A stretch of DNA of 57,165 nucleotides, from NCBI GenBank assembly GCA_020719775.1, contig DYPS01000004.1:1-57165 (forward strand), read 5' to 3'. Below the pieces are notes generated by a model. It worked only from the letters and a program-made list of their open reading frames with translations. It ran no database searches and was not told the origin of the DNA. Source of the stretch: Desulfosporosinus sp. Its GTDB lineage: Bacteria > Campylobacterota > Campylobacteria > Campylobacterales > Arcobacteraceae. Below, one piece after another: positions 36,854 to 43,991 of this stretch. A program made the translations under genes and the position numbers. How positions within the stretch are numbered: the stretch's first letter is position 1; the number at the start of each line of letters is the position of its first letter.

Positions 36854-36894
36854 AAAAGAATCTGTCAAATTGACAGATTCTTTTACTTTTTTTT
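36854..36894 (+). terminator. strong intrinsic terminator after mrp
   Basis: Arms of AAAAGAATCTGTCAA (36854-36868) and TTGACAGATTCTTTT (36870-36884) are perfectly complementary around one central base; the real loop would open to a few bases. A run of T follows (36887-36894). It lies 29 bases after the mrp stop and before the yifB-like gene. Confidence 0.85.
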
Positions 36895-39448: not shown

Positions 39449-40015
39449 TTAAAAAGAAAACTTATCTTGTGCTATCACATCTATCCCTTTAGAGAGTAAT
39501 GTACTTTTAAATCCTTCACCAATTTGTGACACTATATATTGATTGACACCATAGTGTAAAAAAATATTTGTCAGCTCAATAGTTGGCTTTAAATCTGTAC
39601 CATAAAGAGGATTGTCTAAAAAGAGTTTTTCTTTGATTTTTCCAGTTGCATTAAAAGTAAAAATGCAAATATGTCTATTTTTTGAATTAAGATTTGTATA
39701 GTGAGAGATATCATTAGAACACAATGCGACAATACGATTCCCATTTTGCGATTCTAAAGCTAAAGTATTTCCCATAAGTAATCCCAGAGCTACTTTTTTT
39801 CTTGCACTTTTTATGATTCTTGCAAAAGTTGGTCTTGAGGTCCCCATCTTTTGTGCAGCATCCTCTTGATAGAGTTCTAGTAAATCCATAAGATAGAGTG
39901 CTTCGATCTCTTCACTTAAAAGCGTAATTATTTCGTTTGTCCCATTTTCATTAGGGGAAAAACTTTTACATTTTGGCTTAAAGCTCAATTTTCTTTCATT
40001 TTTTGTTCGTGACAT
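39449..40015 (-). CDS. DUF134-NifX transcriptional regulator
   Basis: This 188-residue protein fuses two domains. The N-terminal DUF134 domain (about 8-86) has a helix-turn-helix in YQEDAAQKMGTSRPTFARII followed by KSARKKVA. The C-terminal part (about 92-186) resembles the NifX/NifB dinitrogenase-cofactor-binding fold (NRIVALCSND, then FLHYGVNQYIVSQIGEG), usually a small-ligand or metal-cluster pocket. Neighbours suggest it controls the divergent cytochrome bd operon: a palindrome covers that promoter's -35, and a weaker match spans its own start codon (autoregulation). A NifX-fold protein is also encoded inside the operon. The ligand is unknown. Confidence 0.82.
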   Translation of the reverse strand: MSRTKNERKLSFKPKCKSFSPNENGTNEIITLLSEEIEALYLMDLLELYQEDAAQKMGTSRPTFARIIKSARKKVALGLLMGNTLALESQNGNRIVALCSNDISHYTNLNSKNRHICIFTFNATGKIKEKLFLDNPLYGTDLKPTIELTNIFLHYGVNQYIVSQIGEGFKSTLLSKGIDVIAQDKFSF

Positions 40016-40022
40016 ATCTTTT
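40013..40022. promoter_or_regulatory. weak second copy of the operator at the regulator start codon
   Basis: GACATATCTT overlaps the first codons of the regulator gene. It matches 8 of 10 bases of the palindrome GACATATGTC at 40074-40083. A repressor bound here could block its own transcription or translation. Confidence 0.35.
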
Positions 40023-40071
40023 ACTTTTAAAATTATTTTTTAAATTTTAGCTAATTTTTATTTAAAAATAC

Positions 40072-40100
40072 TTGACATATGTCCATAATAGTTTTACAAT
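40072..40100 (+). promoter_or_regulatory. consensus promoter of the cytochrome bd operon with overlapping operator
   Basis: TTGACA (40072-40077), a 17-base spacer and TACAAT (40095-40100) make a near-perfect sigma-70 promoter with a start near 40107. The 10-base palindrome GACATATGTC (40074-40083) overlaps the -35, as a repressor site would. A full -35 is unusual in this clade. AAAAGG then leads to the ATG at 40129. Confidence 0.7.
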
Positions 40101-40128
40101 TCAATCATATATTTTAAAAGGTAAAATT

Positions 40129-40350
40129 ATGAATATTATAAAACAAATTTATCTATTTTATTTTGAAGGTTTTAAAAATATGACTATTGGAAAAACACTT
40201 TGGAAAATAGTAGTACTCAAACTTCTTGTAATTTTAGTATTTTTAAAATTTTTCATTCATGATAAAACTTTTAAAAGTGAATATCTATCAACTGAAGCAA
40301 AATCAGATTTTGTTTCAGCAAATCTCATCAAAGGAAAATCAAATGATTGA
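40129..40350 (+). CDS. DUF4492 small membrane protein of the cyd operon
   Basis: This 73-residue protein matches the DUF4492 family found before cydA in Campylobacterota and Bacteroidetes. It has IIKQIYLFYFEGFKNMTIGK, then one membrane helix (about 27-43, IVVLKLLVILVFLKFF) and a polar tail. A role in assembly or stability of cytochrome bd is likely but not proven. The ATG at 40129 has AAAAGG 7 bases before it. The last 8 bases overlap the start of cydA, so the two are translationally coupled. Confidence 0.85.
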   Translation: MNIIKQIYLFYFEGFKNMTIGKTLWKIVVLKLLVILVFLKFFIHDKTFKSEYLSTEAKSDFVSANLIKGKSND

Positions 40351-41872
40351 AGAAACACTTGTTGATTGGAGTAGAGCTCAATTTGCCCTCACCGCACTCT
40401 ACCACTTTTTATTTATCCCACTCACTTTAGGGCTTGGCTTTATTGTTGCTATTATGGAGAGTATCTATGTCAAAACTGGTGATCCAATGTGGAAAAAAAT
40501 CACAAAATTCTGGATGACCCTTTTTGCTATCAATTTTGCGATTGGTGTAGCGACTGGGATTATTATGGAGTTTGAGTTTGGTACAAATTGGGCAAATTAT
40601 AGTTGGTTTGTTGGGGATATTTTTGGAGCACCTTTAGCAATTGAGGGGATGATGGCATTTTTTATGGAGAGTACCTTTTTTGCTGTGATGTTTTTTGGTT
40701 GGGATAAAGTCACAAAAGGATTTCATCTCCTCTCCACTTGGCTAGTAGCGATTGGTTCAAACCTCTCAGCTCTTTGGATTTTGGTCGCAAATGGTTGGAT
40801 GCAATATCCTGTTGGGATGGAGTTTAATCCTGATACTGTACGAAATGAGATGGCAAATTTTTGGGATGTTATCCTTTCGCCTGTAGCTATTAGTAAGTTT
40901 TTACATACAGTTGGAAGTGGTTATGTTATTGGATCGCTTTTTGTAATAGGGATAAGTAGTTGGTTTTTACTGAAAAAGAAAGATGTTGTTTTTGCTAAAA
41001 AATCGATTATTATTGGGGCTACTTTTGGACTTATCACTTCCATTTTTCTTATTCTTAGTGGTGATGAATCAGCACATCAAGTTGCTCTAAAACAACCTGT
41101 AAAATTAGCTGCTATGGAGGGTCTTTATGAGGGAAAAACAGAAGCTGAAATTGTAGGGATTGGTATTTTAAATCCAAAGAAAACTTTGGATAATAGTGAA
41201 GAGTCTTTTCTTTTTGAGCTTAAAGCTCCATATGCCCTTTCGCTCCTTGGATACCATGATATCCATGCTTTTGTCCCTGGGCTTCAAGATTTAGTGTATG
41301 GAAATAGTGAATATAATATTATGAGTGCAGATGAAAAAATAGCAAAAGGAAAAATTGCTTTAGAGGCATTTAGTGCTTATAAAGAGGCAAAAAAAGTCGG
41401 GGATATTGAGGTTGCTGAGTTGGCAAAAACAACTCTTGAAGCAAATATGGCTTATTTTGGATATGGGTATTTAGAAAAACCACAAGATATTGTTCCACCA
41501 ATTGGCTTAACATTTTATAGTTTCCATATTATGGTCCTTTTAGGGAGTTGGTTTACATTTCTTTTTGCTATTGTCCTTTATTTTGCAATAAAAAAAGATA
41601 TTGCAAACTATCCACTCCTTCTCAAAGCTTCCCTCTGGTCAATTCCACTTGGCTATATCGCAGCTGAGGCTGGCTGGATAGTAGCTGAAGTTGGAAGACA
41701 ACCTTGGGCAATACAAGATTTGATGCCTGTTGGAGTAGCAGTTACTCATATCTCAAGCACCAATGTAATGATAAGTTTTATCTTGTTTGCAGTTCTTTTT
41801 ACTGCACTTTTAATTGCGGAGATAAAAATTATGACAAAACAAATAAGTCTTGGCTTTGAAGGGGGACACTAA
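40343..41872 (+). CDS. cydA: cytochrome bd oxidase subunit I
   Basis: CydA carries the three hemes and the quinol site of the high-affinity terminal oxidase. The protein of about 509 residues starts at the ATG at 40343; this gives the standard opening WSRAQFALTALYHFLFIPL with H21 as a heme ligand. KFLHTVGSGYVIGS contains another heme histidine, and KLAAMEGLYEG leads into the Q-loop region. GRQPWAIQDLMP is the family signature in the C-terminal half. AAAGGA lies before the start. It could be called cioA if cyanide resistant, which cannot be read from sequence. Confidence 0.95.
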   Translation: MIEETLVDWSRAQFALTALYHFLFIPLTLGLGFIVAIMESIYVKTGDPMWKKITKFWMTLFAINFAIGVATGIIMEFEFGTNWANYSWFVGDIFGAPLAIEGMMAFFMESTFFAVMFFGWDKVTKGFHLLSTWLVAIGSNLSALWILVANGWMQYPVGMEFNPDTVRNEMANFWDVILSPVAISKFLHTVGSGYVIGSLFVIGISSWFLLKKKDVVFAKKSIIIGATFGLITSIFLILSGDESAHQVALKQPVKLAAMEGLYEGKTEAEIVGIGILNPKKTLDNSEESFLFELKAPYALSLLGYHDIHAFVPGLQDLVYGNSEYNIMSADEKIAKGKIALEAFSAYKEAKKVGDIEVAELAKTTLEANMAYFGYGYLEKPQDIVPPIGLTFYSFHIMVLLGSWFTFLFAIVLYFAIKKDIANYPLLLKASLWSIPLGYIAAEAGWIVAEVGRQPWAIQDLMPVGVAVTHISSTNVMISFILFAVLFTALLIAEIKIMTKQISLGFEGGH

Positions 41873-41873
41873 G

Positions 41874-43004
41874 ATGTTTGAAAATTTAACACTTTTACAA
41901 TTACAACAATACTGGTGGATTATCATCTCCTTATTAGGTGGACTTTTTGTATTCATGATGTTTGTACAAGGGGGGCAAACTTTGTTTCGCTCCTTAGCAA
42001 GAGATGAAATTGAAAAAACTATGCTTATTAACAGCATAGGGAGAAAATGGGAGCTAGGATTTACCACTTTAGTCCTTTTTGGTGGAGCTTTATTTGCAGC
42101 TTTCCCTCTTTTTTACAGTACAAGTTTTGGTGGAGCTTATTGGGTTTGGATGGCTATTTTATTTTGTTTTATTATTCAAGCGGTGAGTTATGAGTATAGA
42201 ACCAAGCCAAACAATTTTTTAGGGCAAAAAACTTATGAGTTTTTTTTAGAGATAAACGGGAATGTTGGAGTGTTTTTATTAGGGGTTGCAATAAGTACTT
42301 TTTTTACTGGAAGTGAATTTTTTGTAGATGAGAGAAATTTCTCTTACTGGAAAAATGAACTTCGAGGATTAGAAGCACTTACAAATCCATTTAATCTTTT
42401 TCTTGGATTTTCGTTAGTATTTTTATCAAAAATTTTAGGAGCGATGTATTTTATCAACAATATCGACCATAAAGAGATACAAAACAAGGCAGTTGATTCT
42501 ATAAAAATCAATATGGTTTTATTTTTAGTTTTTTTCTTTGGATTTTTAGGATGGATTTTCACAAAAAATGGATTTAAAGTTGATGCAATGGGTGTTATTT
42601 CGATTGTTCCTTTAAAATATATCCAAAATTTTATCGATATGCCAATTGTTTTTGGGATGTTTATTGTAGGTGTTGGGATGGTTATTGTGGCAGTCTATAG
42701 AACAATTGAGCAAGAGAAAACTTGTTGTATTAAAACAGGAGGCGTTGGTGTTGTTAGCACTGTTATGGCACTTCTCTTATCAGTTGGGCTTAATAACACC
42801 CCATTTTATCCATCTACTTATGATTTGCAAAGTAGTTTAACAATTATGAATAGTTCAGGAAGTCACTACACTTTAGTCACTATGAGTTATGCATCACTCC
42901 TTGTACCATTTGTGTTAGGATATATTGTTTATGCTTGGAGAGCAATGGATAAGGTGAAGATTACAAAAGAGGAGATGAGTGCAACTGATGCTCATCATTA
43001 CTAA
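41874..43004 (+). CDS. cydB: cytochrome bd oxidase subunit II
   Basis: CydB stabilises the heme subunit in the membrane. The protein of about 376 residues starts at the ATG at 41874, one base after the cydA stop, with GGGGGA upstream. It opens LQLQQYWWIIISLLGGLFVFM and has about eight or nine membrane helices, with WELGFTTLVLFGGALFAAFPLFYS in two parts as the conserved core and SHYTLVTMSYASLLVPFVLGYI at the end. Length and order fit the family. A 33-residue membrane protein follows after 14 bases. Confidence 0.94.
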   Translation: MFENLTLLQLQQYWWIIISLLGGLFVFMMFVQGGQTLFRSLARDEIEKTMLINSIGRKWELGFTTLVLFGGALFAAFPLFYSTSFGGAYWVWMAILFCFIIQAVSYEYRTKPNNFLGQKTYEFFLEINGNVGVFLLGVAISTFFTGSEFFVDERNFSYWKNELRGLEALTNPFNLFLGFSLVFLSKILGAMYFINNIDHKEIQNKAVDSIKINMVLFLVFFFGFLGWIFTKNGFKVDAMGVISIVPLKYIQNFIDMPIVFGMFIVGVGMVIVAVYRTIEQEKTCCIKTGGVGVVSTVMALLLSVGLNNTPFYPSTYDLQSSLTIMNSSGSHYTLVTMSYASLLVPFVLGYIVYAWRAMDKVKITKEEMSATDAHHY

Positions 43005-43018
43005 GAAAGGAGGAGTAT

Positions 43019-43120
43019 ATGGAATATGTTGAATCATTAGCTTGGCTAACATTATGGCCAATAGTTTTATATTTTGGATATAAATTTTCGATTAAAAATA
43101 GCTTACAAAAGGAGATATAA
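43019..43120 (+). CDS. 33-residue one-helix membrane protein after cydB (CydX-like in role)
   Basis: A short frame begins at ATG 43019 with AAAGGAGG ideally placed upstream and ends with TAA at 43118-43120. The product MEYVESLAWLTLWPIVLYFG plus a basic tail (YKFSIKNSLQKEI) has one helix of about 17 residues and is amphipathic at its end. Its TAA overlaps the ATG of the next gene (TAATG). Small helix subunits such as CydX (about 37 residues in E. coli) bind CydA/CydB. This one is not clearly homologous by eye, so the comparison is of position, size and topology. Confidence 0.65.
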   Translation: MEYVESLAWLTLWPIVLYFGYKFSIKNSLQKEI

Positions 43121-43530
43121 TGATAGCGATACCACTTAAAATGGAAAAAGAAAGTTCAGCTGTTTCCCCACTTTTTGGGAAAGCAAAATATTTTGCGATA
43201 GTAGATAAAGGGGAAGTTAAGATTTTAAAAAATCTTTGTCATGGGGGAAATCAAGTTGCTATGTGGCTTCATTCGTTGGGAGTAGAAAAACTTATTCTTT
43301 CTCATATGGGTGCAAATCCATTTGAAAAGCTTACAAGCTTTGGGATTGAAATTTACTTTGCAGGAGAAGAGAGAATTGTATTAAAAGATGTTCTTTTGGC
43401 TTATGCCGATGGGGATTTAGTAATGGTAAGCAAAGAAAATTTTGATACTATTTTTCCTCCACATGATCATTCACATGGAGAGGGTCACCATCATAATCAT
43501 GGAGATGATACACACCACACATGTTGTTAA
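43120..43530 (+). CDS. NifX-fold protein with His/Cys-rich metal-binding tail
   Basis: This 136-residue protein has a dinitrogenase iron-molybdenum cofactor biosynthesis (NifX/NifB-like) domain, with ESSAVSPLFGKAKYFAIVD and LCHGGNQVAM (C40), followed by a tail (about 111-136) containing ten histidines, three aspartates and a final Cys-Cys. The tail should bind metal such as iron, nickel, zinc or copper. There are no nif genes. It is the fifth gene of the cyd operon, and its start overlaps the stop of the 33-residue gene. The same fold is fused to the DNA-binding domain of the divergent regulator, so both may sense or carry the same ligand. Confidence 0.85.
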   Translation: MIAIPLKMEKESSAVSPLFGKAKYFAIVDKGEVKILKNLCHGGNQVAMWLHSLGVEKLILSHMGANPFEKLTSFGIEIYFAGEERIVLKDVLLAYADGDLVMVSKENFDTIFPPHDHSHGEGHHHNHGDDTHHTCC

Positions 43531-43595: not shown

Positions 43596-43991
43596 ATGAA
43601 ACAAATGCTTTTTAAAGAAAAATATCCAATCTATGTGATTGAAATCGCTAAAAATGAAACAACTATGAATTCTATTGATGCTATTATTGAGTTTTTAAAG
43701 AACAAAATTGATAATCACCCAATAGCAAAATTTATCGCTATTTTTGATCATATGAGTCATACAAAATCGTTTGAAGATGGTGTGATTGTTGATGGTTTAG
43801 TTGATGCTAAAAATCTTATCTTTTGTTTTGGAAAAGAGATTCCTACAAGTAAAATTTTAGCAGTTCGACCGCGAAGTATTGGTGTTTGTGAGTTTCAAGA
43901 TCATTTCGAACTCAATTTACTTGAAGTTCCAAACGAAAATCTTCATATACTTACAGAGTCTTGGATAAAAGAGATAGTAAATAAAAAATAA
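43596..43991 (+). CDS. conserved-looking protein of unknown family after the cyd operon
   Basis: This 131-residue soluble protein has no family I can name. It has a mixed alpha/beta pattern, starts KEKYPIYVIEIAKNETT, and has a central DHMSHTKSFEDGVI with two histidines, VDAKNLIFCFGKE with a single Cys, and VRPRSIGVCEFQDHF with a second Cys. No signal peptide or helix is seen. AAAGGA precedes the ATG, 65 bases after the NifX gene, so it may belong to the same transcription unit. Its association with oxidase or metal handling is only positional. Confidence 0.65.
   Translation: MKQMLFKEKYPIYVIEIAKNETTMNSIDAIIEFLKNKIDNHPIAKFIAIFDHMSHTKSFEDGVIVDGLVDAKNLIFCFGKEIPTSKILAVRPRSIGVCEFQDHFELNLLEVPNENLHILTESWIKEIVNKK

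Follow-up and report, generated by a model that had tools for sequence, protein, structure and literature searches.

A paired palindromic operator points to a DUF134-NifX-fold protein as a likely local repressor of cytochrome bd genes in Campylobacterota

Introduction

Fe-S-sensing repressors such as IscR/Rrf2 and RirA report Fe-S status to metabolic promoters, and in Escherichia coli the transcription of cydAB is controlled in a redox-dependent manner by ArcA and FNR. Their product, cytochrome bd, contributes to bacterial survival under oxygen, NO and sulfide stress. Here, we describe a candidate regulator encoded beside a cytochrome bd operon in the window, the whole stretch of 57,165 nucleotides that was analysed. 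This protein would work in the same way as IscR/Rrf2 and RirA, but its fold, a sigma-4-like helix-turn-helix (HTH) followed by a NifX domain, and its operator differ from theirs, and it has no three-Cys cluster motif. ArcA and FNR also control cytochrome bd, but these proteins and their sites are unrelated to the DUF134 system.

The HTH of the window protein is that of DUF134/UPF0251 (PF02001; NCBIfam PRK04217, 'hypothetical protein'). Unlike plain DUF134/UPF0251 proteins, the window protein has this HTH joined to a NifX-fold domain and is tied to cytochrome bd. The NifX-fold domain is common to MrpORP and IssA (PMC6345978, PMC5524996), which are cluster carrier or storage proteins and, unlike the proposed regulator, do not bind DNA. 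In the literature searched, most subscription papers being outside its scope, we found no description of DUF134/UPF0251/PF02001/COG1342 as a regulator, nor of its function, operator or regulon, and cytochrome bd control in Campylobacterota is not covered by a review of respiratory regulation (PMC6682613). The present analysis provides this large family without known function with a predicted DNA target, a promoter architecture and a target list, which makes it directly testable.

Results

Genes of the locus and domains of the regulator

The regulator gene (39449..40015, minus strand; PF02001, E 1.2e-17, and fold comparison) is divergent from an operon on the plus strand that starts with the gene of a small DUF4492 membrane protein (40129..40350; PF14899, 4e-23), followed by cydA for cytochrome bd subunit I (40343..41872; PF01654, 1e-163) and cydB for subunit II (41874..43004; PF02322, 2e-69). 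Both the CydA and CydB domains are present, which identifies the cytochrome bd operon, and the Pfam matches bear out an earlier, sequence-only reading of the locus, which had a divergent DUF134 regulator facing DUF4492-cydAB. Downstream of cydB, also on the plus strand, are the genes of a stand-alone NifX-like (Nitro_FeMo-Co) protein (43120..43530; PF02579, 3e-14) and a DUF6858 protein (43596..43991; PF21651, 5e-52), which is a repeated neighbour of NifX/cyd/DUF134 loci throughout the phylum.

In the DUF134 HTH part of the regulator (residues ~1-88; 39752-40015, minus strand), residues 2-88 match PF02001 with 64.7 bits against a cut-off of 27. An AlphaFold2 model based on an alignment of 31 relatives has a pLDDT of 84.8, and residues 14-84 of this predicted model resemble sigma region 4 with a Z of about 7, a fold match that is modest by itself. 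For the second part (residues ~94-188; 39452-39736, minus strand), a fold search with residues 94-188 of the predicted model gave TM1816 with a Z of 12.0 (rmsd 2.0, 91 residues), and the orange protein (ORP; Z 10.3), NafY (10.1) and NifX (9.7) have the same fold. The NifX-like nature of this domain, which the sequence-only reading had proposed, therefore holds by fold but not by Pfam in the window protein itself, where PF02579 gave no match at 0.01; a profile comparison (A1) with MTH1175 gave an E of 0.046. Since a relative (L165) matches both the DUF134 and the NifX Pfam models above their cut-offs (PF02579, 43 bits versus 26.3), the pairing of the two domains is real. In the 31-member alignment of the closest proteins, Cys99 never varies and stands opposite the proline of canonical NifX sequences; it is absent from several more distant two-domain proteins. 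With so few cysteines, classical cluster ligation is not evident.

A conserved pair of operators around the cyd promoter

The cyd promoter consists of the -35 hexamer TTGACA (40072..40077, plus strand), a 17-bp spacer and the -10 hexamer TACAAT (40095..40100, plus strand). It agrees with the consensus at 11/12 positions and is the top promoter-like match of 39900-40400. The palindrome GACATATGTC occurs exactly at 40074-40083, so that the promoter with a palindrome over its -35 reads as previously described. The window contains 81 perfect 10-bp palindromes across its 57 kb and eight promoter-like pairs with at least 11/12 matches. Since palindromes of this length are not rare, the window palindrome is not significant by itself, and conservation is what counts.

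In the intergenic regions between the regulator and cydAB, a consensus operator, TTGACATATGTTCA, sits over the -35, and a second operator (TGAACATATGTTCA, CGGTCATATGTTCA or similar) is located 30-32 bp from the first, just past the -10 in relatives. The true operator, as predicted from these alignments, is TTGACATATGTTCA/TGAACATATGTTCA and not specifically GACATATGTC, and its two copies flank the -10. Operator 1 of the window was assigned by promoter comparison across relatives and has the sequence TTGACATATGTCCA (40072..40085, plus strand), with the -35 hexamer inside it. Operator 2 was assigned from an alignment of 19 promoters and is a decayed copy, CAATCATATATTTT (40102..40115, plus strand), directly past the -10. 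The window is thus an outlier among its relatives, with an altered first site and a degenerate second one. Its genome has one good operator only and is one of the weaker examples of the system. The sequence-only reading overlooked this predicted second operator and placed a weaker copy over the start of the regulator gene (GACATATCTT, 40011-40020); that copy is not borne out, being absent there in orthologues and no better than chance (18 matches with up to two mismatches versus 20.4 expected).

The operators are conserved together with the regulator. In a set of 104 genomes that we take to be the family Arcobacteraceae, 48 have the regulator, and strict TTGACATATGTTCA was found in 39 of these 48 versus 1 of the 56 regulator-negative genomes (Fisher p 9.5e-19, with many of the compared loci belonging to close relatives and not independent). 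The sole regulator-negative match (L109 of G042) falls within a coding ORF, and a reversed-pattern control was near zero. The 320-bp upstream region contains at least one operator at 62 of 70 regulator loci and two or three at 47. Where operators are paired, the usual distance is 30-32 bp and the -35 falls inside operator 1. A looser pattern, TKNACATATGTNMA, was rejected for regulon definition as too noisy.

Of the family genomes, 40/104 have cydA. The sequence-only reading had proposed to look for the palindrome at orthologous loci, and its idea held up: the operator is present in all 22 DUF4492-cydAB promoters on the regulator's side (21 that adjoin the regulator on one contig, and one in G101, where both pieces lie at contig ends), whereas CATATG was found within 400 bp of none of the 18 unlinked cydAB promoters, in genomes with or without the regulator (Fisher p 9e-12). 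One genome (G030) has two cydAB copies (C1:270023 and 1707575), only one of which adjoins the regulator, and this copy has the operators. In regulator-less relatives within one genus (G003, G010 and G013), a TTGAC-17-TATAAT-type promoter is kept and the operators are missing. The linkage between cydAB and the regulator recurs in further families (L172, L173, L177, L175, L182 and L195), and since at least six changes of the cydAB-linkage label are needed on the tree, it was gained or lost repeatedly.

DUF134 genes across the phylum and beyond

DUF134 was found in 73/397 genomes of the phylum. The family also occurs across bacteria and in archaea, with Methanocaldococcus and Methanosarcina among the controls. 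Outside Campylobacterota, 47 DUF134 loci were compared, and the 6-bp palindrome seen most often up to 150 bp upstream is CATATG (27/47; the next reaches 11/47), and TKNNCATATGNNMA lies upstream of 15/47 in comparison with 3/1415 control windows. These loci include full palindromes, for instance TGAGCATATGCTCA and TGAACATATGTTCA, even at a locus with 72% GC; the 20 genes without upstream CATATG may include operon-internal ones. Since CATATG palindromes mark DUF134 genes in other phyla too, the operator seems to be a feature of the whole DUF134 family. Elsewhere, the motif is often about 20-100 bp upstream of the DUF134 gene, and autoregulation of the window regulator gene is therefore plausible.

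Other genes with operators

Group-B paralogues are divergent from a NifX-like gene and have the same two-operator promoter, and NifX-like genes are common site-bearing targets of DUF134 regulators elsewhere. In 11 genomes of group-B genera, aceE (pyruvate dehydrogenase) is preceded by the same operator, and at most of these 11 loci another copy lies about 53 bp further upstream. Paired operators precede porG (pyruvate:ferredoxin oxidoreductase; three genomes) and nifJ (G035). This distribution suggests that oxygen-tolerant and oxygen-sensitive pyruvate oxidation are both under the control of a single factor. Several single exact matches in group-B genomes, all within coding genes, were discarded. 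In another family of the order, TehA/SLAC1-type channel genes have an operator or face the regulator. Operons of paired MinD/NUBPL-like 4Fe-4S ATPases and NifX-like proteins are headed by short DUF134 genes or, as is seen in other families, preceded by operators (L110, L190, L191, L202, L290 and L291); this module is widespread, and we found no study of MinD/NUBPL-NifX-DUF134 in the literature searched. The predicted system is much wider than the cyd genes.

Discussion

Taken as a whole, the DUF134-NifX protein is likely to be a palindrome-binding local repressor of DUF4492-cydAB with a NifX-fold sensor. Judging from the conservation of the sites, it very probably binds the palindrome, and the position of the sites implies repression: the operators overlap the core promoter and are conserved alongside the regulator, as is looked for in a two-operator repressor. 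The earlier claim that the regulator represses cytochrome bd is supported by site geometry and conservation, while the operator sequence and the place of the second copy had to be corrected. In the proposed mechanism, the gene at 39449-40015 encodes a one-component DUF134-family transcription factor, whose sigma-region-4-like HTH, probably dimeric, would bind the T(T/G)(A/G)ACATATGTTCA palindrome. Binding to operator 1 would block the -35 of the cyd promoter, and in most relatives a second dimer would occupy operator 2 just past the -10. Since the operators are three helical turns apart, the two dimers would lie on the same DNA face, and together they would exclude RNA polymerase, resulting in local repression of DUF4492-cydAB.

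Sensing is probably the task of the C-terminal NifX-fold domain. Our best guess for its signal, a speculative one by analogy, falls on iron-sulfur or related metal-sulfur species, such as an Fe-S cluster or a thioferrate-like species. This working guess is based on MrpORP (PMC6345978) and IssA (PMC5524996), whose NifX-type (Di-Nase, IPR003731) domains bind Fe-S and thioferrate, respectively, and on targets that include MinD/NUBPL, aceE, porG and nifJ. Gain or loss of such a species upon a change in oxygen, NO, sulfide or iron would relieve repression, and cytochrome bd would be made when the Fe-S/redox balance is upset. The targets NifX, MinD/NUBPL, TehA/SLAC1, pyruvate dehydrogenase and pyruvate:ferredoxin oxidoreductase fit Fe-S/redox sensing.

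Cytochrome bd is also sulfide-tolerant, and the sensor domain might respond to sulfide/persulfide or a Mo-Cu-S species rather than to an Fe-S cluster. We consider this unlikely, though it is the alternative to be taken most seriously: sulfide-type oxidoreductase-like genes (L175, L192), the TehA/SLAC1 channel and a cysteine-synthase gene are found at some sites or loci, and the fold relative ORP binds a Mo-Cu-S cluster (PMC6345978). However, these gene links are lineage-specific, the L175/L192-type oxidoreductases score far below the SQR cut-offs, and the aceE, por and MinD/NUBPL targets suit Fe-S/redox sensing better. A NifX-type sensor would link cofactor chaperones to gene regulation. By a tentative and rather doubtful extension, all DUF134 proteins could be autoregulated repressors that read TKNNCATATGNNMA palindromes, and so form one large family across phyla. 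Those fused to NifX would then be the first known transcription factors with a nitrogenase-cofactor-chaperone (NifX) sensor, and through them the genes of respiration (cytochrome bd), pyruvate oxidation and cluster handling would respond to free Fe-S/metal-sulfur clusters.

The sign of regulation could also be the opposite, with the regulator activating cydAB, or activating and repressing according to its ligand. A sigma-region-4-like HTH near the -35 could touch the polymerase, and the position of group-B sites varies more at aceE and porG. In contrast, the cydAB operators lie over the -35 and to either side of the -10 with a near-fixed spacing, and near-consensus promoters are retained in relatives without the regulator. 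Since such promoters should in principle need no activator, this argues for repression, and we regard activation as improbable.

Another reading assigns the palindrome to an NO- or oxygen-sensing CRP/FNR protein that controls cydAB through a TTGAC-N4-GTCAA site (NssR/DNR-like), with the DUF134 protein as a bystander. The 5-4-5 spacing is known for sites of NO-responsive FNR relatives, the window site TTGAC-ATAT-GTCCA fits it, and cytochrome bd is NO-tolerant. However, strict sites have a fixed ATAT centre rather than four free bases, most copies are TGAAC/GTTCA and not TTGA(T/C), and the motif tracks the presence (39/48 versus 1/56) and the position of the DUF134 gene, in many other phyla as well. 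The window regulator itself matched only PF02001 in Pfam, with no cNMP-binding or Crp-type HTH domain found. These features make a CRP/FNR-type site very unlikely. A LexA (SOS) box is hardly credible: GAACATATGTTC resembles the Gram-positive LexA site, and the identical 12-mer appears in an SOS-response review, but the site-bearing targets are respiratory and metabolic, and the LexA DNA-binding domain was found in 0/25 genomes examined with working positive controls, a rejection that holds unless an unrecognised LexA exists.

Besides the proposed DUF134-NifX repressor and its operators, two observations concern the window and its assembly. There are only two copies of GACATATGTC in the 2.85-Mb assembly, and the second (L108) is on a contig (C221) without obvious bacterial genes, whose sole ORF tested encodes an EF-hand protein; this contig is probably eukaryotic contamination. 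At 36868-36893 of the window, two promoter-like pairs, each with a perfect TTGACA, lie on opposite strands with starts two bases apart.
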